Positions 3,248 to 58,240 of a DNA stretch of 64,000 nt are shown piece after piece. The notes under the pieces are model-generated. The model had not been told where the DNA came from. It saw only the letters and a program-made list of their open reading frames with translations, and did no database searches. The stretch spans positions 1-64,000 of the forward strand of contig JAGAIZ010000060.1 in assembly GCA_017626325.1 (NCBI GenBank), written 5' to 3'. The translations under genes were made by a program, and so were the position numbers. This DNA comes from Lachnospiraceae bacterium (GTDB lineage Bacteria > Bacillota > Clostridia > Lachnospirales > Lachnospiraceae). How positions within the stretch are numbered: the first letter of the stretch is position 1; each line of letters opens with the position of its first letter.

Positions 3248-5734
3248 ATGGAAATACGAGTTTCGGTCCGAAGCCTGGTAGAGTTCATTCTGCGCTCCGG
3301 CGATATCGATAATCGAAAAGCGGCCGCGCCCGAAAACGCGATGCAGGAAGGAAGCCGGATTCACAGAATGATACAGCGCCGTATGGGGCCGGAGTATCAG
3401 GCTGAGGTGGGGCTTAAGTATGTGTATCGGGTCGAAGCCGCCGATAGGATAGAGAGTGTATCCGTTGTGGCAGGCGGGATGCCGTCTGCGGCTTTGGACG
3501 GAGAAGACGGCACGATGCGGCATATGCCTGCAGAATATGATATTGTAGTGGAGGGACGTGCGGACGGCATTATTACGAAGGAAGATGTGACCATTGATGA
3601 AATCAAGGGAACTTTTCATGATCTGAAGAAAATGAAAGGCCCTGTACCGGTTCATTTGGCGCAGGCGAAATGCTATGCCTATATGTATGCCAGGCAGCAG
3701 GAGCTTGAGCGGATTCGGGTACGCATGACTTATTGTCATATAGAGACGGAAGAGCTTCGTTACTTTTATTATGATTTTACTTATGTGGAATTGGATGAAT
3801 GGTTTGCGTATGTGATGGAGCAGTACCGTAAATGGGCGGATTACAGCTTCTGGTGGCAGCAGGTCAGACAGTCGTCCATCAAGACGCTTGCGTTTCCTTT
3901 TCCTTACAGGGAAGGGCAGAAAGATCTGGTGACTTATGTTTATCAGACGATATATCATAAGCGGAAATTATTTATCGAAGCGCCTACCGGTGTTGGTAAG
4001 ACGATATCCACTGTTTTTCCGGCTGTGAAGGCGATGGGAGAGGGATTGTGTGACAAGATATTCTATCTGACTGCGAAAACCATTACCCGCACGGTGGCAG
4101 ATCAAACGTTTGCGCTCCTGCGGGAGCAGGGACTTAAGCTTAAGAGCGTGAATCTGACTGCCAGAGACAAGATCTGCTTCATGGAGGAGTCAGAATGTAA
4201 TCCCGAGTATTGTCCTTTTGCCAGAGGGCATTATGACAGGATCAATGAAGCCATGTACGATATGCTGATCCACGAAGACAATTATAACAGGGAGACGATC
4301 GAGACGTATGCGGGGAAGCATGAGGTATGTCCCTTTGAAATGTGCCTGGATATGAGCCTCTTCTCGGATGCGGTCATTTGCGACTATAATTATTTGTTTG
4401 ATCCCCACGTATATCTGCGGCGCTTTTTTGCTGATGGCGTGCGCGGGGAATATATTTTTCTGGTGGATGAAGCGCATAATCTGGTAGAGCGCGGCAGAGA
4501 TATGTATAGTGCGGTACTGCGCAAGGAAGATTTTCTGGAATTAAAGAAGACTGTGAAAGCGTATGATGAGCGGATTGCCAGGAATCTTGATAAGTGCAAT
4601 AGAGAGCTTTTGGCGCTCAAGAGAGAATGTGAGAAGTACAGAATTGAAGAAACAATCGATTCCTTTGTGCGGGCATTGATTCGGCTGGGGTCAGCTATGG
4701 ACGATTACCTGGAAGATCATGAAGACAGCCCGGTCAGAAAAGAGGTTCTGGAATTCTATTTTGAAGTTTCTCATTTTCTGGAAATGTATGAGTTGGTGGA
4801 CGAGAATTATGTGATATATTCGGAGATAGAGTCAGACGGCAGTTTTATTCTGAAGCTCTTCTGTGTCAATCCGGCTAAGAATCTTAAGGAGTGCATGATG
4901 CGCGGCAGAAGCACGATTCTGTTTTCTGCCACGCTTCTGCCGATTCAATATTACAAAACCTTGCTGGGCGCTGCCGAAGGGGATTATGAGGTTTATGCCA
5001 GGTCCGTATTTCGTCCCGAGAAGCTTGGGCTCTATATTGGAAGCGATGTGACGAGTAAATACAGCCGCAGAAGCAGCGAAGAATATTATCGGATCGCGTC
5101 CTACATTCATAATATAGTAGAAAAAAGGCACGGCAATTATATGCTGTTTTTCCCTTCCCATGCCTTTATGCGGGAAGTGTACGATATCTATCAGCATTAC
5201 TTTAACAGGGAGTGCGCGGCGGAATGTATCGTGCAGGAAGAATATATGGACGAGCAGGCGAGGGAGATATTCTTAAGCCGGTTTACAGGAAATGAAAATT
5301 GTGATCTGAATGCCCTGATACAGATAGAGATTGAGATGGAAGAAGAGAAAAGTCTGCTTGGCTTCTGCGTAATGGGAGGTATTTTCAGTGAAGGAATCGA
5401 TCTTAAGAATGACAGCCTGATCGGCGCTGTTATTGTTGGGACGGGAATACCGCAGGTATGCAATGAGCGGGAAATATTGAAGAATTATTTTGACGGCTGG
5501 GGAGAGAGCGGCTTTGACTATGCCTATCGGTATCCGGGGATGAATAAAGTGCTGCAGGCGGCAGGACGCGTCATTCGTACTGCGGAGGACTTCGGAATCG
5601 TGGCGCTGTTGGACGAGCGTTTCCTGACGCCTGCTTATCAAAGACTGTTCCCAAGAGAATGGCATAATTATGAAGTTACGGATGTTGACCGTATTGGTCG
5701 GCGTATAGAACGGTTCTGGGACGAATGGCTGTAA
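3248..5734 (+). CDS. Cas4-like nuclease fused to XPD/Rad3-type helicase
   Basis: An 828-residue superfamily 2 helicase of the DinG/Rad3 group. Residues 1 to about 215 look like a PD-(D/E)XK nuclease: an Asp before a strand, the ExK pair in TIDEIKGT, and the QAKCYAY helix seen in Cas4 and AddB nucleases. Walker A is EAPTGVGKT (about 245-252) and Walker B is DEAH (about 406). Between them several cysteines (about 310-366, including CNPEYC and CPFEMC) fit the iron-sulfur domain of XPD helicases. The C-terminal HELICc2 part includes QAAGRVIRT. Firmicutes DinG usually has a DnaQ-type exonuclease instead. It likely unwinds and trims damaged or branched DNA, consistent with its repair neighbours. 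Confidence 0.82.
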   Translation: MEIRVSVRSLVEFILRSGDIDNRKAAAPENAMQEGSRIHRMIQRRMGPEYQAEVGLKYVYRVEAADRIESVSVVAGGMPSAALDGEDGTMRHMPAEYDIVVEGRADGIITKEDVTIDEIKGTFHDLKKMKGPVPVHLAQAKCYAYMYARQQELERIRVRMTYCHIETEELRYFYYDFTYVELDEWFAYVMEQYRKWADYSFWWQQVRQSSIKTLAFPFPYREGQKDLVTYVYQTIYHKRKLFIEAPTGVGKTISTVFPAVKAMGEGLCDKIFYLTAKTITRTVADQTFALLREQGLKLKSVNLTARDKICFMEESECNPEYCPFARGHYDRINEAMYDMLIHEDNYNRETIETYAGKHEVCPFEMCLDMSLFSDAVICDYNYLFDPHVYLRRFFADGVRGEYIFLVDEAHNLVERGRDMYSAVLRKEDFLELKKTVKAYDERIARNLDKCNRELLALKRECEKYRIEETIDSFVRALIRLGSAMDDYLEDHEDSPVRKEVLEFYFEVSHFLEMYELVDENYVIYSEIESDGSFILKLFCVNPAKNLKECMMRGRSTILFSATLLPIQYYKTLLGAAEGDYEVYARSVFRPEKLGLYIGSDVTSKYSRRSSEEYYRIASYIHNIVEKRHGNYMLFFPSHAFMREVYDIYQHYFNRECAAECIVQEEYMDEQAREIFLSRFTGNENCDLNALIQIEIEMEEEKSLLGFCVMGGIFSEGIDLKNDSLIGAVIVGTGIPQVCNEREILKNYFDGWGESGFDYAYRYPGMNKVLQAAGRVIRTAEDFGIVALLDERFLTPAYQRLFPREWHNYEVTDVDRIGRRIERFWDEWL

Positions 5735-46631: not shown

Positions 46632-47378
46632 ATGAACAGAATGCCAAAAAGTTATGACAAATATACGGATATTCACATCCATGTTATTCCGGGAGTAGAC
46701 GATGGCTCCGGGGATCCGGATATGAGTATGGAGATGCTCCGGTACGCATATGCGGAGGGAATCGGAAGGATGATCGTTACGCCGCATAATAAACCGATGC
46801 ATCATAATGCGGGCAGAGAGAAGATTGAACAGTTGATTCAGCTTCTGGAGACCCGGATGCGGCAGGAAGGGATTGCGATAGAGTTATATCCGGGCAATGA
46901 ACTTTATTACAGGGAAGAACTGGCGGAACGCATCGAGCAGGGCAGGGCGCTCACGATGGCCGGCTCAAAATATGTTTTGATAGAATTCATGCCCTCAGAC
47001 GGGTGGGAGTATATCAGAGATGGAGTCAATAACATGCTGATGGCAGGTTATCGACCTATTCTTGCGCATATAGAGAGATATCAGGAAGTGTGCAGGGACA
47101 TTGAACGGGCGGTCAGGCTGCATGAGATGGGGTGTTATATCCAGGTGAATACCGCAAGCCTCATGGGAAGATACGGTATGGGAATCAAAGGATATATTAA
47201 GAAGCTGCTGAAACAGCAGTTGGTTGATTTCGTAGCCACAGACGCCCATAATGCCGCAAACAGGGCGCCGGATATGGACAAATGCGCGGAGTATATCGCC
47301 AGAAAATATGGCGGGGATTATCTGCGTAAGCTGCTTGTGGAGAATCCGGAGCGCGTCATCAGAGACGAGTATATATAA
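46632..47378 (+). CDS. cpsB: CpsB/CapC-type tyrosine-protein phosphatase
   Basis: A 248-residue PHP-domain phosphatase: metal-binding DIHIHVIPGVDDGS near the N-terminus, MIVTPHNKPMHH, and DFVATDAHNAANRAP near the C-terminus. It dephosphorylates the CpsD-type kinase encoded two genes on and thus controls polysaccharide export. First gene of the cps operon, with XRE-type repeats over its promoter. Confidence 0.92.
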   Translation: MNRMPKSYDKYTDIHIHVIPGVDDGSGDPDMSMEMLRYAYAEGIGRMIVTPHNKPMHHNAGREKIEQLIQLLETRMRQEGIAIELYPGNELYYREELAERIEQGRALTMAGSKYVLIEFMPSDGWEYIRDGVNNMLMAGYRPILAHIERYQEVCRDIERAVRLHEMGCYIQVNTASLMGRYGMGIKGYIKKLLKQQLVDFVATDAHNAANRAPDMDKCAEYIARKYGGDYLRKLLVENPERVIRDEYI

Positions 47379-47394
47379 CTAATGGAGAACAGAT

Positions 47395-48132
47395 ATGGAA
47401 AATCAAAGAAACAATGATGTGATAGAGATCGATCTGCTGGAACTGTTTCATGTCCTGTTAGGACAGATCGGCATGATCTTAAGCGTTGGAATCCTGACGG
47501 CGCTGGTGGCTTTTATGGTGAGCAAGTTTGTGCTCTCCCCGGTCTATGAATCTACGACGAAGATTTACATCCTGAATAAAACGGACACATCTTCGGTTAC
47601 CTATAGCGACGTGCAGATGGGTACGCAGTTGACGAAGGATTATGCGCAGCTCATCAGCAGCAGATATGTGCTGGAAGAAGTAATCCAGATATTGGCGCTG
47701 GATATGGATTATCAGGAAATGCTTGCCAAGGTGAGCGTAGATACGCCTACGGATACGCGTATCGTATCCATTACGGTAGAAGACCACGATCCGGTACAGG
47801 CGATGAAAATCGCCAACTGTATCAGAGAGGCGGCCAGCGAACATATTCAGAACGTTATGGATATTGAAGCGGTGAATGTGGTGGAGACAGCCAATATGCC
47901 GACTGAGAAGGCGGGGCCTAAATGCGGTCTGTGGACCATCATGGGAGGCGTGGCAGGCGCGGCGCTTATCTGCATTATCGTGTTGATCCGTTATCTGATG
48001 GACGATACGATCAAGTCCTCGGAGGATGTGGAGAAGTATCTGGGCTTAAGCACGCTGGCGCTGATTCCTATGGCGTCGGACGACAACAGCCGCAGCACCA
48101 AGAAGAGCAAAAAGAAGAAAATAAAGAGGTAA
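47395..48132 (+). CDS. Wzz/CpsC-type chain-length regulator
   Basis: A 245-residue polysaccharide co-polymerase with membrane helices near residues 24-46 and 182-203 flanking an extracellular coiled region, including the PVYESTTKIYI start of Wzz. The PNM motif before the second helix appears as TANMPTEKAGPK. It activates the CpsD kinase encoded 3 bp downstream and sets polymer length. Confidence 0.9.
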   Translation: MENQRNNDVIEIDLLELFHVLLGQIGMILSVGILTALVAFMVSKFVLSPVYESTTKIYILNKTDTSSVTYSDVQMGTQLTKDYAQLISSRYVLEEVIQILALDMDYQEMLAKVSVDTPTDTRIVSITVEDHDPVQAMKIANCIREAASEHIQNVMDIEAVNVVETANMPTEKAGPKCGLWTIMGGVAGAALICIIVLIRYLMDDTIKSSEDVEKYLGLSTLALIPMASDDNSRSTKKSKKKKIKR

Positions 48133-48135
48133 GCG

Positions 48136-49071
48136 ATGCAGTCAGTAAAGTTACAGTTCGATCAAAAAGATGATTACAGGATAAAAGAAGCATTTAAAAC
48201 ATTGCGAAGCAACATAGAATTCAGCGGAAGCGATATCAGAGTTATCGCAATTACAAGCTGTACCCCGAATGAGGGTAAATCCAGTGTGGCAATGGAAGTG
48301 GCGAAATCCTTTGCAGAGGCAGGATCGCGTACGATACTGATCGATGCGGATATGCGTAAATCGGTGCTGGTCGGAAGATATAAGACAGGCGCGGTGCGCA
48401 AGGGCTTAAGCCAGACGCTGATTGGCAGGACGACGCTGGAAGACGCGATCTGCGAGACGAACCTGGATAACCTGTATATGATCTTCGCGGGACCGGTGGC
48501 GCCTAATCCCAGCGAGCTTTTGGGAGACGCGCTGTTTGGAGAGATTCTGGAGAAGCTTAAGAAAGTTTTTGACTATATTATCGTTGACACGCCGCCGCTG
48601 GGGAGCGTCATAGATGCCGCCGTAGTAGCGAAGCGCTGCAACGGAACGATTATTGTGGTGGAGAACAACGCGGTAAGCTACCGTTTTGTACAGAAGGTGA
48701 AAGAACAGCTTGATAAGACCGAGAGCAGGATTCTGGGCGTAGTACTGAATAAGGTGAACTTAAACAGTAAGGGCTATTACGGTCATTACGGAAGATATTA
48801 TGGTAAATATTACGGTCAGTATTACGGCAATTACGGCGCTGAGAATAAGGAAGGCGGCGAAGAGGCGAAACCGGAGAGTAAAGACGAGACCAGGACAGAG
48901 ACGAAAACAGATAGCAGATCAGAAATAAAGGCTGATAAGAAGATTCCTCAGAATGCTGTGCAGCCTGATAAAACGATCAGCAGAATAAATGCAATAGACG
49001 AGTTAGATGAGCTGGATGAATTGGATGAAATAGATGAGTTGGATCTGGATATATTGGATGAGGAAGCATAA
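48136..49071 (+). CDS. CpsD/CapB-type tyrosine kinase with acidic tail
   Basis: A 311-residue BY-kinase. Walker A is TPNEGKSS (43-50), Walker A' TILIDADMRK (about 66-75) and Walker B in DYIIVDTPPLG. A tyrosine cluster (about 213-234, repeated YYG) is the autophosphorylation site. Unusually the protein continues for about 75 residues: a Lys/Glu/Thr-rich linker and a final acidic Asp-Glu-Leu repeat from about 285. Normal members end soon after the tyrosines. Its stop overlaps the next start by one base. Confidence 0.9.
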   Translation: MQSVKLQFDQKDDYRIKEAFKTLRSNIEFSGSDIRVIAITSCTPNEGKSSVAMEVAKSFAEAGSRTILIDADMRKSVLVGRYKTGAVRKGLSQTLIGRTTLEDAICETNLDNLYMIFAGPVAPNPSELLGDALFGEILEKLKKVFDYIIVDTPPLGSVIDAAVVAKRCNGTIIVVENNAVSYRFVQKVKEQLDKTESRILGVVLNKVNLNSKGYYGHYGRYYGKYYGQYYGNYGAENKEGGEEAKPESKDETRTETKTDSRSEIKADKKIPQNAVQPDKTISRINAIDELDELDELDEIDELDLDILDEEA

Positions 49072-49928
49072 TGAAACGTAACAGATGGATTGTAATTTCT
49101 ATTATCGTAATTAATATTTGCATCATATGTACCTGCGCCGTCCTGATCTTAAGGGAGGACAGGACAACGCCGGAGTTCCGTTTTCAGCCGAGCGATTATA
49201 CATACTTAAGAAGCGACGGCGAGGAAATGCTTCTGCAGGATATTATAGCATATGACAACAGGGACGGAATTATTACGGATCGTATCGTTATCGAGAAGAT
49301 CGTGGAGAATCAGGACAGCAGTACTGCGGTCGTATATTACGCGGTCAGCGATCTGGCGGGAAATGTGGCCAAGGTGTCCAGAATCTTCCCCATGGAACCG
49401 GCCGACGAAGTACCGGAATACGTAACAGAGCAGTCGGAAGAGACGGCGGAAAACGAACAGGAAGAGACGCCTGAGACAGAAGAAGAAAACAAAGAAACTG
49501 CGCAGCAGGATGAGGAACAGGATACCGATCAGGAACCGGAAGAGGAAGAGAATCAGCCGGAAGAGGAGGAAGAGGCTGAGGACGAATCGGAAGAGACTGA
49601 TGAAAGTAATGATGAGGAAGAGGCGAGGGCTGAGGAAGAGGAGCCGGAACCGGAACCAACAAGACAGACCGTGGACAGAAGCGGATATCCGGTGCTGACG
49701 CTTAAGAAAAGTGAAGTGACGATTCAGGCGGGAACTTCGCCGCCGTGGACAGAACTAATCGAGACTATGCGGGATGATAAGGACGATTATACGACCTTAT
49801 ATTATAACTTACATATCAGTAAATTCACATCCGGCAAGGCGGGAGATTATCCGGTGACATTACAGGCGGAGGATACGGACGGAAATCTGTCTGATCCGGT
49901 TACGGTAACGGTACATGTGAGAGAGTAG
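49071..49928 (+). CDS. Membrane-anchored Ig-like protein with Glu-rich linker
   Basis: A 285-residue protein I can only describe. One N-terminal membrane helix (WIVISIIVINICIICTCAVL) anchors two bacterial Ig-like (DUF5011-type) domains, residues about 35-110 and 200-284, joined by a strongly acidic linker (about 120-195, mostly Glu, Gln, Asp). Location inside the cps operon, one base overlapping the kinase gene, suggests a wall-zone protein working with the polysaccharide machinery. No enzyme motif. Confidence 0.65.
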   Translation: MKRNRWIVISIIVINICIICTCAVLILREDRTTPEFRFQPSDYTYLRSDGEEMLLQDIIAYDNRDGIITDRIVIEKIVENQDSSTAVVYYAVSDLAGNVAKVSRIFPMEPADEVPEYVTEQSEETAENEQEETPETEEENKETAQQDEEQDTDQEPEEEENQPEEEEEAEDESEETDESNDEEEARAEEEEPEPEPTRQTVDRSGYPVLTLKKSEVTIQAGTSPPWTELIETMRDDKDDYTTLYYNLHISKFTSGKAGDYPVTLQAEDTDGNLSDPVTVTVHVRE

Positions 49929-49964
49929 ACTGCCCGGAAGCAATGAATTGTAAAGGAAATCGAA

Positions 49965-51131
49965 ATGGGAAAGAAAAAACGGAGTGATGAGGCGGCAAAT
50001 CTTGAAAAAGAGAAACTGCTCAGCCCGGAAAGAGTCAAAAAGAAGAAAAAACAGAAGCACCGCAGAATCCTGATAGCGGTCGTCCTGGCAATCGTATTGG
50101 TGGTTGTGCTGATCTTCCTGGTCTATTTCGTAGCGGGAGCTATGGGAAAAGCAAGACTGCACAGCGCGGATCAGGCGATGCAGGCGGAACGGATGCTGAC
50201 GGAGGAGACAGAAGATCTGACCGAGGAAGAACAGCAGGTCTGGCAGGAAGGCTGGGTGAAATACCAGGGACAGGTATATGCCTACAATGAAGATGTGCTG
50301 ACGTTCCTTTTTATGGGAATAGATAAAAATGACGAAGTGGTAAAAGAAGTGGAAGAAGGAACCAACGGAGGACAGGCGGACGCACTGTTCCTGCTGGTAT
50401 TAAATCCGCATACGGAATCGATCAGTGTGATCGGGATTAACCGCAACAGTATGACGGATATAGATATCTACAATGAAGAAGGCGCCTATGTAAATACAGT
50501 GGAAGCGCAGATAGCGGTTCAGCACGGTTTCGGCAACGGCGTGGAGGAAAGCTGCGAATATCAGGTAAAAGCGGTGAGAAATCTGTTCTATCAGATTCCG
50601 GTGCATGGATACTGCGCAATCAATGCCAAGGCAGTGATACCGCTGACGGATATGGTGGGAGGCGTAGAGCTGACCGCACTGGAAGATGTGAAGCGCTATG
50701 GAGACAAGAGCGGCGCGCTGGCAGTAAAGGAAGGAGAGCGCAAGCTGTTAGACGGCGAGAACGCATATTCCTATGTCAGAAGCAGAGATACGAAAACCTT
50801 CGGATCCGCAGATATGCGTCTGCAGAGACAGAAGCAGTATCTGGCAGAAATGATGAAGAAATTAAAAGAGCAGACAGCGAAGGATCTTCTGCTGCCGGTG
50901 AGAATGTATAACGAACTTGCTAATTATATGACGACCGACGTGACGGCAGACGAAGTGGCATATTTGTCACAGATCGCTCTCAATTACCGTTTCGACCAGA
51001 GCAGTATATATTCCCTGGAAGGAGAGACCGTACAGGGGGAAGAATTCGAAGAATTCCATGTAGACGAGACGGCATTGTACGAGATGATTCTGGAGATCTT
51101 CTATGAACCGGTGGAGATGCCGCAGAGATGA
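49965..51131 (+). CDS. LytR-CpsA-Psr (LCP) family ligase
   Basis: A 388-residue LCP protein. A basic cytoplasmic N-terminus precedes a membrane helix (about 36-60), then the LCP domain with FLFMGIDKNDEV, GGQADALFLLVLNPHT, IGINRNSMTDI and VRSRDTKTFGSADMRLQRQ, whose Arg and Asp residues bind polyprenyl pyrophosphate. It attaches the finished polysaccharide to peptidoglycan on the outer face of the membrane. Confidence 0.9.
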   Translation: MGKKKRSDEAANLEKEKLLSPERVKKKKKQKHRRILIAVVLAIVLVVVLIFLVYFVAGAMGKARLHSADQAMQAERMLTEETEDLTEEEQQVWQEGWVKYQGQVYAYNEDVLTFLFMGIDKNDEVVKEVEEGTNGGQADALFLLVLNPHTESISVIGINRNSMTDIDIYNEEGAYVNTVEAQIAVQHGFGNGVEESCEYQVKAVRNLFYQIPVHGYCAINAKAVIPLTDMVGGVELTALEDVKRYGDKSGALAVKEGERKLLDGENAYSYVRSRDTKTFGSADMRLQRQKQYLAEMMKKLKEQTAKDLLLPVRMYNELANYMTTDVTADEVAYLSQIALNYRFDQSSIYSLEGETVQGEEFEEFHVDETALYEMILEIFYEPVEMPQR

Positions 51132-52112: not shown

Positions 52113-52682
52113 ATGAAAAAGTTCGTAGCATTATTAACAGCATCTGTAATGTTAGCTTCTATGACAGTAAGCGCAGCAGGATCTCCTACTGCAGCAGCAG
52201 TAGTGGCAAGCTCAGCCGCATATGCGGAGGAAGGCTTCCATGCAGCAGCAGACCAGCAGGCAGCTTCTGAGAGAGGCTTATCAGCAGGTGAGTATTACAA
52301 CAACGCAGTAGTAGCAGCGCCCGGTATTGACAGTGCTTTACCGGTAGGCCAGGGCGGCAAGATCATGATCAATGGTGTTGCAACAAACCTGACAGCAACG
52401 CTGGCTAAGCCGGCGCAGGCGGTTGTAACGTCTGCAAACGCACAGGCAGCAGCGCTGGGCGGAACTTTACTGAATGTAGTAAAGGTAGATTTCCCTGGTG
52501 CAAATTACAATGTTGCTACAATTAACTTCTATGTAAAAGGCCTTGCAGAAGGCAAGAAGGTAGCTGCTAAGCAGTATGTAAACGGCGCCTGGGTTGACGT
52601 AGAAGTTGTAGAAGTAAGAGCTGACCATGTAGTTCTGAACTTAAAGAACTCCGGAGCAGTTGCATTTGTAGCACTTCCTTAA
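52113..52682 (+). CDS. Small secreted protein of unknown function
   Basis: A 189-residue protein with a signal peptide (KKFVALLTASVMLASMTVSA, cleavage likely near residue 22). The mature part is Ala/Val-rich: a helical region to about residue 75, then a beta-rich domain with GGKIMINGVATNLTATL, and a repeating beta C-terminus ending NSGAVAFVALP. I know no family. AAAGGAGG is 9 bp before ATG 52113, which decides against ATG 52107. No LPxTG or NPQTN sorting motif is seen. It is the last gene before a strong terminator and follows the pseudo-sortase, which may bind it. Confidence 0.7.
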   Translation: MKKFVALLTASVMLASMTVSAAGSPTAAAVVASSAAYAEEGFHAAADQQAASERGLSAGEYYNNAVVAAPGIDSALPVGQGGKIMINGVATNLTATLAKPAQAVVTSANAQAAALGGTLLNVVKVDFPGANYNVATINFYVKGLAEGKKVAAKQYVNGAWVDVEVVEVRADHVVLNLKNSGAVAFVALP

Positions 52683-52776
52683 TCGGAATCTGCAAATCCG
52701 GGATTTCCAAATCCGGGATATGTAAAACCTTATTAAGGTGTAACTTTTTTGAATTCAAAAAACGAGTGTGGGGTGG

Positions 52777-52806
52777 CATGCTGCCACTTCGGTGGCAGCA
52801 TGTTTT
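52777..52806 (+). terminator. Strong terminator of the cps-proximal operon
   Basis: CATGCTGCCAC-TTCG-GTGGCAGCATG, 11-bp perfect stem (52777-52802), followed by TTTT. Preceded by palindrome TTTTTTGAATTCAAAAAA (52745-52762). Confidence 0.88.
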
Positions 52807-52839
52807 CAAAAAAGAAAGTCTCAATATTAAGTAAAAAAG

Positions 52840-52871
52840 TTGATATTTTTTCGGGGGGGGGGGGGTATTAC
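52840..52871 (+). promoter_or_regulatory. Candidate phase-variable promoter with G13 spacer tract
   Basis: TTGATA (52840-52845) and TATTAC (52866-52871) are separated by 20 bp made of TTTTTTC plus 13 G (52853-52865). Optimal spacing is 17 bp, which a tract of 10 G would give. Only promoter I find between the terminator and the glycan operon. Confidence 0.5.
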
Positions 52872-52884
52872 GGGATGGTAAAAA

Positions 52885-52942
52885 TATCCGGCCCGAATAT
52901 TGTTACCTACGCCGGATATAAAAGAAGAGACAGGACGTAGGT
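52885..52942 (+). promoter_or_regulatory. Leader with two competing hairpins
   Basis: TATCCGG (52885-52891) can pair with CCGGATA (52912-52918). ACCTACG (52905-52911) can pair with CGTAGGT (52936-52942), which runs into TTTGTTG. The two interlock, so only one forms at a time, or they make a pseudoknot; the second looks like a weak terminator. Confidence 0.4.
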
Positions 52943-53025
52943 TTTGTTGTATAGAAGGAGAGAAAATGCTGTTTGCAGGAGACTGCAGACGGGAATGAAT
53001 TTGCTTTTGGAAAAGAGATTAGATT

Positions 53026-53946
53026 ATGAATTACGATTTAATTAGTTTAAATACGGTGATGAATCCGGATCCGAAGCTGGGGGGCTTGTCTTTTGTTGAG
53101 AGCCAGAGAGACATTCCGTTTTCGATACAGAGGGTTTATTGCATCTATAAAACAGAAGAAAATCAGCACAGGGGATTTCATGCACACAAAAAGAACTGGC
53201 AGCTTTTGTTTTGCCCCTACGGAGCTGTGGAGATTATCCTTTCGGACGGAGTAGATAGTGAAACGGTGACTTTAGATGAGCCATCCAAGGGGCTGGTTCT
53301 GCATCCGGGATTGTGGCGTGAAATGATATGGAAGCATGATGATTCGGTTCTCTGTGTAGCAGCGTCAGAATATTATGATCCAGATGAATACATAAGAGAT
53401 TACGATGAATTTTTGAAATATAAAAACGTAACTACAGATGAAATTAAATGGGGGGGGGTAAATAGGTTAGATTATCTGGATAATTATTTGCAGGGATCAA
53501 GAATGCTTTGTTTTCCTGGTATAAATGAGAAAGCACAGAAATCTTTCGAAGTTAAAGGAGTCAGGGATGTCCCGTTTGAAATCAGAAGAATTTTCTATAT
53601 TTTTGGGAAAGGTAATGTGGGACTTGTCAGAGGAAAACATGCAAATAGAAATTCAGAGTTTGTGCTTTTTAATGTCTCCGGCAAGAGTAAAGTAAAGACT
53701 ATCGATGAAAATCGGAAAGAAGTTATTTATGAATTAAACCAGCCGAGAGAGGCTGTCTATCTGCCGCGGATGACATGGAAAGAAATGTATGATTTTACAG
53801 AAGATTCAGTTTTAATGGTTTTGACGAATGAATACTATGACCCTGAAGAGTATATAAGAAGTTTTAATGATTATGTTAAAGAAATAAAATCTGTGATGGA
53901 GAATGAAAATGGCTATAGAAACTGTTGTATTGAAGAGAACGTTTAA
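53026..53946 (+). CDS. Tandem FdtA/WxcM-like sugar 3,4-ketoisomerase
   Basis: A 306-residue protein made of two cupin domains of the FdtA/QdtA family (1-137 and about 150-300), which isomerise dTDP-4-keto-6-deoxyglucose to the 3-keto sugar used for Fuc3N or Qui3N. Domain 1 keeps both histidines (His52, His54 in GFHAHKK); domain 2 has His205 but Asn207 (GKHANRN), so may differ or be inactive. Free FdtA is about 140 residues. A 9-G tract codes Trp142-Gly-Gly between the domains; gain or loss of one G gives an immediate stop. The next gene starts inside its end. Confidence 0.85.
   Translation: MNYDLISLNTVMNPDPKLGGLSFVESQRDIPFSIQRVYCIYKTEENQHRGFHAHKKNWQLLFCPYGAVEIILSDGVDSETVTLDEPSKGLVLHPGLWREMIWKHDDSVLCVAASEYYDPDEYIRDYDEFLKYKNVTTDEIKWGGVNRLDYLDNYLQGSRMLCFPGINEKAQKSFEVKGVRDVPFEIRRIFYIFGKGNVGLVRGKHANRNSEFVLFNVSGKSKVKTIDENRKEVIYELNQPREAVYLPRMTWKEMYDFTEDSVLMVLTNEYYDPEEYIRSFNDYVKEIKSVMENENGYRNCCIEENV
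53450..53458 (+). repeat. G9 tract at the FdtA domain junction
   Basis: Nine consecutive G in codons 142-145. With eight G the frame reads TAA at once; with ten G it reads AAA then TAG. Either change yields a protein of about 144-146 residues containing domain 1 only. Confidence 0.9.
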
Positions 53947-55000
53947 TGCACATAAGGATGAGTATGAGGAAGCGGCGCTAAGAGCTCTTAATTCTGGCTG
54001 GTATATTCTTGGAAATGAAATGCAGGAATTTGAAGAGCAGTTTGCTTCTTATCTGGGAGTAAAACATTGTGTTGCCGTTAATTCTGGAACAGACGCCCTT
54101 ATTCTTGCATTGCGGGCACTTGATATCCATGAAGGTGATGAGGTCATTGTTCCTGCAAATACCTACATAGCATCTGTGATTGGTGTGACTGAAAACGGTG
54201 CAACACCGGTGTTTGTAGACGCAGATAAATTTATGGAAATTGATGCAGACGGTATCGAAGAAAAGATAACCAATAGAACAAAAGCTATTCTGCCGGTTCA
54301 TCTGTTCGGGCAGACAAGCAGAATGGACAGAATTAAGGCATTGGCAGACAAGTATCATTTAAAACTTATTGAGGATTGTGCGCAGTGTCATGGTTCTAAA
54401 TACAAGGGACAGTATGCAGGTACTTTTGGTGATATAGGATGCTTTAGTTTTTACCCAACTAAGCCTTTAGGCGCTTTGGGTGATGCTGGAGCAATTGTAA
54501 CAAATGATAATGAAGTGGCTGAAAGGCTGCGCCTGTTGAGAAATTATGGCAGCAAAATTAAATATCATAATGAAATTAATGGTATAAACAGCCGTATGGA
54601 TGAAGTGCAGGCTTCTGTACTGAAGATAGGCCTTAAATATCTTGATGAAGGTAATGAGATCAGAAAGAAGCAGGCTCGGATGTATATGGAAGGTATAAAA
54701 AATCCTAAAGTTATTATTCCTCCTGTAAATGAAAACGCAGATCATGTTTATCATCTTTTTCCTGTACTTGTGAAGGAACGTGATAAGTTTCAAAAATACT
54801 TGCTGGAAAATGAAATAAAAACACAGGTACACTATCCAATTCCACCTTATATGGCTGAGTGCTATAAGGACTGGAGATATGTATGGAGCGATTTCCCGAA
54901 TGCGGAACGATATGCAAAACAGGAGGTCAGTCTTCCTATTTATGTTGGATTGCCGGACGCGGAACTGCAGTATGTAATCGATGTGGTTAATAGATATTAA
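53909..55000 (+). CDS. DegT/DnrJ/EryC1/StrS sugar aminotransferase (FdtB-like)
   Basis: A 363-residue PLP-dependent aminotransferase. The PLP lysine is Lys185 in FSFYPTKPLGALGDAGA, with Asp156 in LIEDCAQCHG and the start LNSGWYILGNEMQEFE. Following an FdtA-type isomerase, it most likely makes dTDP-3-amino-3,6-dideoxyhexose (Fuc3N or Qui3N). ATG 53909 lies in the end of the isomerase gene (38-bp overlap), so expression is coupled. Confidence 0.9.
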   Translation: MAIETVVLKRTFNAHKDEYEEAALRALNSGWYILGNEMQEFEEQFASYLGVKHCVAVNSGTDALILALRALDIHEGDEVIVPANTYIASVIGVTENGATPVFVDADKFMEIDADGIEEKITNRTKAILPVHLFGQTSRMDRIKALADKYHLKLIEDCAQCHGSKYKGQYAGTFGDIGCFSFYPTKPLGALGDAGAIVTNDNEVAERLRLLRNYGSKIKYHNEINGINSRMDEVQASVLKIGLKYLDEGNEIRKKQARMYMEGIKNPKVIIPPVNENADHVYHLFPVLVKERDKFQKYLLENEIKTQVHYPIPPYMAECYKDWRYVWSDFPNAERYAKQEVSLPIYVGLPDAELQYVIDVVNRY

Positions 55001-56050: not shown

Positions 56051-56884
56051 ATGAATGTAAAAGAGCAATATATCGGGAATTCAAATTTGATTTCAAAAAG
56101 CGAAGCAGAGATGGCAGAGATGCTTAAAAGAAAGAATCTTGATCACGCAAATGAAGTTGCACAAAGAGTAGTTCCTAAGGATACGATATATTCCAGATAT
56201 GTCAAAAGATTATTTGACATTATAATTTCTTTAACTGCGTGTATTTTGTTGTTGCCTTTTAATCTCGTCTTTGCGGTATGTACCTTTCTAGATGTCGGCA
56301 GACCAATTTTTTATAGGCAGTCGCGTTGTGGAAAAGATGGTAAAGAATTTATTTTGGTTAAATTTAGAAATATGAATAATAAGACGGACGAAAAAGGTCA
56401 GCTATTACCGGCAGCGCAGCGAATAACTAAATTTGGGCATATTATGCGCAAATATTCTCTGGATGAGTTCTTAAATTTTGTAAATGTATTAAAGGGGGAT
56501 ATGTCCATTATTGGGCCAAGACCTTTACCAATGTTTTTTTATCAGAGAATGAATGACAGACACAAGATGAGAACTTGCGTCAGACCAGGATTGGAATGCC
56601 CGCGTATATTTGTACCGGAAGACAAAAACTTATGTCAATATCATATTCAATTTGAAAATGATATTTGGTATGTGGAACACGTTAGTTTCATAACGGATGC
56701 TAAGATGTGCTTTAAATTGGTAAAAATGGTATTTGATTTAAGAATAAGAGATCGGCGTGCAAAGGGGGATGCAGCGTCATATTTTGTGGGCTACGACGAG
56801 CAGGGTCATGCTTTGAGCATGAATACAGCAAGACAACTTTATGGAGAAAACGCTCAAATTAAGAAGGATGTTTTGGCATGTTGA
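56051..56884 (+). CDS. Initiating sugar-phosphate transferase (WcaJ/PglC family)
   Basis: A 277-residue bacterial sugar transferase (PF02397) that loads the first sugar phosphate onto undecaprenyl phosphate at the membrane. It has one re-entrant hydrophobic helix (KRLFDIIISLTACILLLPFN), then VGRPIFYRQSRCGKDGKEF, KFRNM, and the catalytic region YSLDEFLNFVNVLKGDMSII with GPRPLP. This is the short PglC-like class without the N-terminal four-helix part. AGGTGAGG supports ATG 56051. A 22-nt gap separates it from the next gene. Confidence 0.9.
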   Translation: MNVKEQYIGNSNLISKSEAEMAEMLKRKNLDHANEVAQRVVPKDTIYSRYVKRLFDIIISLTACILLLPFNLVFAVCTFLDVGRPIFYRQSRCGKDGKEFILVKFRNMNNKTDEKGQLLPAAQRITKFGHIMRKYSLDEFLNFVNVLKGDMSIIGPRPLPMFFYQRMNDRHKMRTCVRPGLECPRIFVPEDKNLCQYHIQFENDIWYVEHVSFITDAKMCFKLVKMVFDLRIRDRRAKGDAASYFVGYDEQGHALSMNTARQLYGENAQIKKDVLAC

Positions 56885-56906
56885 TGGAAGGGCATGGAGG
56901 ATTAAT

Positions 56907-57551
56907 GTGAAAGATATCATTATCGTATGTGCAGGCAGTTATGGTAAAGAAGTGTATTATACCATTCAAAAAATAAACCAGGCAGCACTGAAAGATGGAA
57001 AAGAAAAACAATATAATTTATTAGGTTTTATCAATGATATTCCGAATGCATTGGAAACATCAGAAATAGATCTTCCGATTTTAGGTACAATCAAAGAATG
57101 GAGGCCTATTGCCGACGAAGTCTATGCGCTTGGATTGGGTACGCCTTCATCAAAGAAAAAAGTTGTGGACATGCTTAAAAGCAGAGGATGTCAGTTTGAA
57201 ACAATAATAGCGCCCTATGTGATTTTGCCGGATGATCTGGTTATTGGGGAAGGATGTCTGATTAAAGCATACCATATTGCCAGCGGTGTTAAGATAGGAA
57301 ATTATGTGAATATGCATGGATCCATGATTATGCCAGGAGCAGTTATTGGAGATTATAGTACTACAACTGGTTTTGCCGTTATAGAAAATGCTTCTATTGG
57401 GGAAGGTGTATATGTTGGAAGCCATGCCGTTGTTACAGAAGGAGTAACTGTAGGCGATAACGTTAATATATCAGCGGGAAGCATTGTAATCAAAGATATT
57501 TCTTCTAATAAAAAAGTGTTTGGTTTTCCTGCGGTTGAATCTTCGCTGTAA
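56907..57551 (+). CDS. NeuD/PglD-like sugar acyltransferase 1
   Basis: A 214-residue left-handed beta-helix acyltransferase. Residues 1-90 are the PglD N-terminal sugar-nucleotide domain (IIIVCAGSYGKEVYYTI, ILGTIKEW); residues about 105-205 are hexapeptide repeats (VIGEGCLIKA, IGNYVNMHGSMIMPGAVIGD, VTVGDNVNISAGSIV) that bind acyl-CoA. GTG 56907 follows GGAGG at 6 bp. It probably acylates a sugar amine or hydroxyl. A diverged copy follows directly. Confidence 0.8.
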   Translation: MKDIIIVCAGSYGKEVYYTIQKINQAALKDGKEKQYNLLGFINDIPNALETSEIDLPILGTIKEWRPIADEVYALGLGTPSSKKKVVDMLKSRGCQFETIIAPYVILPDDLVIGEGCLIKAYHIASGVKIGNYVNMHGSMIMPGAVIGDYSTTTGFAVIENASIGEGVYVGSHAVVTEGVTVGDNVNISAGSIVIKDISSNKKVFGFPAVESSL

Positions 57552-57568
57552 GGTGTAGAGAGGTGCAT

Positions 57569-58240
57569 ATGCAGAAAAATGTGATTATAGTCTGTGAAGA
57601 TTTATTTGGGTTGGAAGTGTATTCAATATTAAATGAAATTAATATGTATGTGGCAAGAGAAAGATTGTCCGATGATACATATGATGTAAAGGGATTTATT
57701 TCCAATAATCCGCAGCCCTTCGGTATGGTTGATAATCAATCTAAACCTATTTTGGGAAATATAGATTCCTGGCAGCCAATTGATGATGAACAATATGTTA
57801 TGGGAATCAAAGATCCGGAGAATAAAGAATATGCGGCAAAGGTACTTAAAGACAAAGGCGCAAAATTTCTGACAATTCTGACGCCATGGACCTTAACGCC
57901 GGATCGTACCTGTATAGGAGAAGGATGTGTAATTTCGAATTATAGCTTTAAGGATGGCGCGGTATTTGACGAATTCGTAACAATGATTAATGTTATGGCG
58001 GGAGCGGCTCATGTAGGGGCATATACTACGATACAGGCATTTGCCAATATCACGAATGCGGACATAGGTAAGAAGGTTCGGATTGGAAGTCATGCTTTCA
58101 TAATGGAACATATAAAAATCGGGGATAATTCTCGGATTTATCCGGGCAGCATGGTATATGCCAATGTGAAGCCGAATCAAAAAATGGCTGGTATTCCTGC
58201 AAATAGAATGAAATACAGAAAACTTGTTGAGGAAGCTTGA
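57569..58240 (+). CDS. NeuD/PglD-like sugar acyltransferase 2
   Basis: A 223-residue paralogue of the preceding gene: PglD-type N-terminal domain (NVIIVCEDLFGLEVYSIL, ILGNIDSWQP) and hexapeptide-repeat C-terminus (IGEGCVISNYSFKDGAVFDE, IGDNSRIYPGSMVY). The catalytic His expected after the third turn is less clear than in copy 1. The two may form a heteromer or serve two acyl positions. ATG 57569 follows GAGAGG. Confidence 0.75.
   Translation: MQKNVIIVCEDLFGLEVYSILNEINMYVARERLSDDTYDVKGFISNNPQPFGMVDNQSKPILGNIDSWQPIDDEQYVMGIKDPENKEYAAKVLKDKGAKFLTILTPWTLTPDRTCIGEGCVISNYSFKDGAVFDEFVTMINVMAGAAHVGAYTTIQAFANITNADIGKKVRIGSHAFIMEHIKIGDNSRIYPGSMVYANVKPNQKMAGIPANRMKYRKLVEEA

Follow-up and report, generated by a model that had tools for sequence, protein, structure and literature searches.

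Introduction

Discussion of phase variation among the commensals of the gut centers mostly on the inversion of DNA segments. The poly-G contingency genes of Campylobacter jejuni contain many G runs, often within surface-sugar genes, that place a gene in or out of frame. The porA-type promoters of Neisseria carry a homopolymer in the spacer, as a G run between the -35 and -10 boxes. The closest precedent that we found for the locus described here is the set of pilus G-tracts of Bifidobacterium breve UCC2003, for which slippage was measured and polarity on downstream genes was proposed, according to the available part of that report (PMC9187656). The titles and abstract openings returned by our literature search among openly licensed papers describe no such tracts in Lachnospiraceae, which is weak evidence of novelty, and a further paper (PMC12355684) mentions neither Blautia nor Lachnospiraceae in its available part.

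We analyzed a stretch of 64,000 nucleotides (the window) from the draft genome of a Lachnospiraceae bacterium (3,113,318 bases in 88 contigs). A preliminary description, made from the sequence alone, had drawn attention to a run of nine G between two domains of a sugar isomerase and had proposed that the run is a contingency locus. We consider it likely that, as the best explanation of the whole, this G9 is a slippage (contingency) tract, that a G13 upstream of it forms a second layer, and that the two are members of a wider set of poly-G tracts in the family.

Results and Discussion

The G9 tract and the tandem ketoisomerase gene

Direct reading of the window places the nine G at 53450..53458 on the forward strand, with T before them and TAAATAGG after. 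They lie in an ORF of 306 aa (53026..53946, +), which reads ...EIKWGGVNR... across the tract, Trp-Gly-Gly being the product of the nine G. Pfam matches the protein to PF05523 (FdtA) in two stretches (E 5.8e-74), which makes it a tandem FdtA-family sugar 3,4-ketoisomerase, encoded by the first gene after the promoter region. The preliminary description had placed Trp-Gly-Gly exactly between two FdtA-type domains, and the position, the frame, and the two PF05523 stretches agree with this exactly. The early stops that it had predicted were also recovered by frame computation, since the 306-aa frame is shortened to 144 aa by a TAA when one G is lost and to 146 aa by a TAG when one is gained. Its statement that about 145 residues is the length of a normal free FdtA is right as well, given that eight aligned single-domain relatives have 135-148 aa.

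The two domains are not alike. Domain 1 (53026..53448, +) contains RGFHAH and WREM and has FdtA (2pa7) as its best solved match, whereas domain 2 (53503..53943, +) contains RGKHAN and WKEM and is closest to WlaRA (5tpv), which likewise reads HAN in the alignment. The designation "FdtA-type" holds for both at the level of the family but needs correcting for domain 2, which is no plain copy of FdtA. The identity between the domains is 35% over 110 residues, which points to two unlike isomerases and not to a recent duplication. A motif survey demanding fixed spacing, which missed some domains such as the first domain of locus L013 (WWEI), found 17 domains, 14 with HAH and WREM and three with HAN and WKEM. 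The latter three come from L013, L017, and L020, the relatives that carry both domains (see below), and in each case it is the second domain. No relative of the tandem protein was found among viral contigs.

We take the HxH pair to be the active-site, catalytic histidines of FdtA/QdtA ketoisomerases; it is present as HAH in domain 1 and replaced by HAN in domain 2. That domain 2 might be dead through its missing second histidine was considered and rejected, because the solved ketoisomerase WlaRA also has HAN. L020 (5001-5429) shows the opposite of the pattern expected if domain 2 were dead, with domain 1 lacking RGxHAH (it reads CGFDAR) and domain 2 retaining RGKHAN.

An in-frame ATG at 53503, 44 nt past the early TAA, has AGGG 7 nt before it and is a possible internal start, and the piece from 53503 onward is a complete domain. 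With both features in place, an alternation between fused and separate domains would be at least as likely as the loss of domain 2. The preliminary description had spoken of a switch to a single-domain enzyme; the early stop that this involves is real, but the rest is probably overstated, as domain 2 could be restarted from this ATG, which would yield two separate proteins like those of L020.

The operon and an upstream G13 tract

A second and longer run, which the preliminary description had missed, is the G13 at 52853..52865 (+). It lies upstream of the tandem gene, 584 bases from G9, in the likely promoter of the tandem operon. A box search gave a putative promoter at 52840..52871 (+), with TTGATA starting at 52840 and TATTAC at 52866, and with G13 inside the 20-nt spacer. 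A strict promoter scan did not report this site, in which the spacer is 20 and the -10 matches in 4 of 6 positions. Scanning and folding placed a strong hairpin followed by a T-rich stretch just before it (52775..52801, +), resembling the terminator at the end of an upstream transcript, and the tandem gene comes after it. The same place in the related locus L014 holds 11 G within near-identical flanks, followed by TATTTC. L014 also has an extra ORF (3614-4585) between the G11 promoter-like region and fdtA, which may separate the two.

The stop codon of the tandem gene (53944-53946) falls within the next ORF, a DegT/DnrJ/EryC1 aminotransferase by Pfam (53903..55000, +). Pfam further identified a bacterial sugar transferase (PF02397; 56039..56884, +), two hexapeptide acyltransferases (56841..58240, +), and an AMP-binding enzyme downstream; from this gene content, G13 faces a surface-polysaccharide operon. 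By our own recognition of the sequence, the region upstream (46632-51131) is presumably a capsule regulation set (tyrosine phosphatase, kinase, chain-length protein, and LytR-CpsA-Psr), and what we take to be a sortase-like protein follows it.

Matches to the flank of the upstream promoter were sought in two sets of genomes. At up to two mismatches, 108 of 397 family genomes matched, and only the window was exact among the matches listed; this search was set aside. At three mismatches, 11 of the 77 genomes of the window's genus matched, as did two with the reversed control, and the exact matches were the window and genome G479. Most of the others look unrelated on reading. An exception is L223, from the same genus, where TTGACA-TTTTTTC-G9-TAG-TATAAT is similar to the window site.

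Two Rfam matches within 52600-53200 scored far below their gathering scores, and on that basis we recognize no known leader RNA there. A leader attenuator was also considered, from a stem near 52905-52942 in the window and L014, and was rejected for its weak folding z-scores (-1.9, -1.3).

Excess and placement of long G runs in the genome

Eleven overlapping matches merge into six runs of nine or more G in the genome. These are a G9 on contig C3, the G13 and G9 of the window (C43), two G9 on C49, and a G10 on C59; exact G7 runs also number six. Each additional base reduced the count of short runs in the window by an extension ratio of 0.16-0.25, while the ratio at the final step (0.33) comes from six runs. 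With a ratio of 0.18-0.20, the expected number of runs of nine or more is 0.24-0.30 (P about 2e-7 to 8e-7 for the six observed), and with a generous ratio of 0.3 the P is still about 1.5e-4. Among dinucleotide shuffles of the window, 2 of 100 reached its eight overlapping G8 matches; this is a weaker control because GG dinucleotides contributed by the runs are kept in the shuffles. By simple arithmetic, some pair within 584 bases would occur among six randomly placed runs in under 1% of cases. The run in the tandem gene is thus longer than chance predicts, and a change of one base alters the product.

The remaining four runs fall both inside genes and in promoter-like sequences. The G9 on C3 (L182 2003-2011) splits a family-2 glycosyltransferase (GT2) between two frames. 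One of the C49 runs (L183) is in frame within a long surface-type protein whose start resembles a signal peptide by eye. The second C49 run sits in TTGCAA-18-TATAAT and the G10 of C59 in TTGATA-19-TAAAAT, so that in both of these putative promoters, assigned by sequence, the -35 and -10 boxes flank the run at a workable spacing. The ORFs downstream have hydrophobic or signal-peptide-like starts by eye. In the ortholog of the C49 promoter in G458 there are ten G in place of nine, with TTGC, the run, and TATAAT kept and the surroundings different.

The junction in relatives

A scan of genome_contigs (84,980 species, one assembly per species) returned 13 loci, three of which have both domains (L013, L017, and L020); the other ten showed a single FdtA domain close to the match. 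In Blautia schinkii DSM 10518 (L017), 13 G occupy the same junction and the two domains are out of frame with each other; PF05523 is matched by each half on its own. The domains of L013, from an uncultured Blautia, are fused in frame over an interrupted run (GGGGAGGGGG). At L020, from an uncultured Lachnospiraceae, there are two genes, with GGGAGG before the second and no run at the junction. An aminotransferase is directly 3' in the window, L013, and L017. With a cutoff of E below 1e-42, a search of the window's genus (77 genomes) yielded the window itself, G479 (first domain, 86%), and G499 (second domain, 67%), and no further tandem among the other 76.

The length at the homologous site therefore differs, from nine G in the window to 13 in B. 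schinkii, with the run interrupted in L013 and absent from L020; these lengths come from draft assemblies and can be wrong, and the out-of-frame state of B. schinkii rests on one draft. In this small sample, the junction occurs in four states (fused across a pure run, fused across a broken one, out of frame, and as separate genes), such as a slippery junction could produce. The preliminary description had named synonymous interruptions in relatives as evidence against its proposal. An interruption that counts against it in this way was found in one relative, L013 (GGGGAGGGGG, in frame), although the base concerned changes the amino acid.

The same states could also be read as the relic of a gene fusion, in which adjacent genes were joined via a G-rich junction, the fusion became fixed, and the G9 is tolerated without being used. 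The fused L013 with its interrupted run and the two genes of L020 with no run speak for such a history, and the window run is just nine long, the shortest class that we counted. A fusion relic does not account for the pure 13-G run at the same site between out-of-frame domains in B. schinkii, or for the surrounding repertoire of long runs, and we regard it as unlikely.

G runs in related genomes and across the family

We searched the genomes of six relatives for nine G and merged the listed matches by hand. B. schinkii has 32 runs of nine or more, four others have 7, 2, 10, and 1, and G462 has at least 8. Together with the six of the window genome, 66 runs were classified by a mechanical rule whose assignments are doubtful in cases such as L136, L142, L151, L158, and L184 (the last really a promoter case), giving 15 runs in frame, 14 between frames, 7 near a C-terminal end, and 30 in non-coding sequence. 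TATAAT or TAAAAT directly follows the run in 8 of the 66.

Thirty coding-looking pieces were scanned with Pfam. They matched glycosyltransferases (GT2 and GT4 types), hexapeptide and type-3 acyltransferases, an FkbM methyltransferase, a pyruvyl transferase, an epimerase, DUF6056, an alpha-galactosidase, a GHKL domain, and a D12 adenine DNA methyltransferase, and several had no match. This presence of sugar genes near tracts is descriptive only, as the pieces were chosen for looking coding and have no background comparison.

Three runs of B. schinkii are worth describing individually. A G9 (L138 2000-2008) lies between two frames of the D12 adenine DNA methyltransferase and might make a methylation switch. 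Another G9 (L132 2000-2008) has a complete family-4 glycosyltransferase on one side and a second, out-of-frame glycosyltransferase C-domain on the other, and is another possible junction tract. A G11 (L127 2010-2020) stands between an upstream part of 378 residues and a GHKL ATPase domain that is out of frame.

At least one run of nine or more G is present in 42 of 45 genomes of the same genus. One of this genus, G005, has 87 such runs, far above the window genome.

Across the 397 genomes of the family, G9 stands directly before TAWAAT at 58 sites in 44 genomes, against one site for the reversed pattern, and C9 before TAWAAT occurs at 8 sites against 4 reversed. Thirty of the 58 sites, each from a different genome, were examined individually. 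A -35 box matching in at least 4 of 6 positions was found at a spacing of 14-22 in 22 of the 30, with 19 of these at 17-20 and the exact TTGACA at six; the other eight have no such box. With at least 5 of 6 positions and a spacing of 16-19, a -35 box was found at 10 of the 30 sites, compared with 2.2% of shuffled flanks. Many of the ORFs that follow begin like signal peptides or lipoproteins by eye. These patterns are most simply read as a sign that G runs serve some biological function in this lineage.

Slippage might instead occur during expression, by RNA polymerase or the ribosome, with one genotype giving both the fused and the short form. Homopolymers are slippery in general, and both alternative frames end soon after the run, which would produce a single domain of normal length in either direction. 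Slippage of this kind leaves unexplained why tract lengths differ at homologous sites and why runs occupy promoter spacers, and we think it improbable. An assembly or sequencing artefact in the run or its length is very improbable, for although the genome is an 88-contig draft, G-run lengths are hard to call (according to the available part of PMC9187656), and the out-of-frame state of B. schinkii is from a single draft, G9 holds the 306-aa frame open, a second species also has a run at this site, and a 58-to-1 pattern across the family is not a local error.

Proposed mechanism and significance

The G9 tract probably acts as one switch among a set of poly-G tracts that serve phase variation. 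As a contingency locus, it gains from the tract of different length between differing frames in B. schinkii and from the further tracts in surface genes and promoter-like spacers of the genome and its relatives, and it is weakened by the interrupted run of L013 and the tract-free junction of L020. We propose that replication slippage adds or removes G, so that a clone would vary in tract length and mix the fused two-domain enzyme with a domain 1 that stops just after the tract. After the early stop, domain 2 would either be remade from the ATG at 53503 or lost, so that the switch may be one between joined and separate domains and need not cost the cell domain 2. Less of the overlapping aminotransferase could also be made when translation is lost, as the available part of PMC9187656 proposes for the Bifidobacterium pilus tracts.

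The G13, placed in the putative promoter spacer, would set transcription of the surface-polysaccharide operon. Both tracts would then be part of a family repertoire that acts on surface-sugar genes, exported proteins, and their promoters. In its fullest form, this is a family-wide poly-G system in which runs adjacent to -10 boxes tune the promoters of exported-protein and surface-sugar genes and intragenic runs toggle sugar enzymes. Both layers would converge on this operon, with fused or separate ketoisomerases altering the type or amount of a surface deoxy-amino sugar and hence the sugar structure. We put this fuller proposal forward as plausible but tentative.

If the runs slip, a major gut family also varies its surface by simple-repeat slippage, largely hidden by assemblies, which would matter for phage sensitivity, immune recognition, and the comparison of strains. 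The tract in the tandem gene would moreover toggle enzyme domains between a fused and a separate form, and not merely between on and off.

Comparison with known systems

The solved ketoisomerases FdtA (2pa7), QdtA (4o9e), and WlaRA (5tpv) are of the same domain family as the tandem protein. FdtA has HAH as in domain 1 of the window and WlaRA has HAN as in domain 2. However, the solved chains are single domains of 139-155 aa, while the window encodes two unlike domains fused over a G run.

The window's family resembles Campylobacter jejuni in its many G runs, often within surface-sugar genes and in or out of frame, and it also has many directly before -10 boxes, here in Lachnospiraceae and known from sequence. 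The G13 site shares with porA-type promoters of Neisseria a G run between -35 and -10, an arrangement in which run length sets spacer length. It differs in its weak -10 and 20-nt spacer, and it is a putative promoter.

The pilus tracts of B. breve UCC2003, as far as the available part of PMC9187656 describes them, resemble the window locus in that a G run lies within the leading gene of a surface operon, in a gut commensal that is Gram-positive, and in both cases the number of G determines whether two ORFs are joined into one. The B. breve gene encodes a pilus subunit, whereas that of the window encodes a sugar enzyme, in another phylum, both halves of which are complete domains. Unlike the B. 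breve operon in that part of the report, the operon in the window has a second run in its likely promoter.
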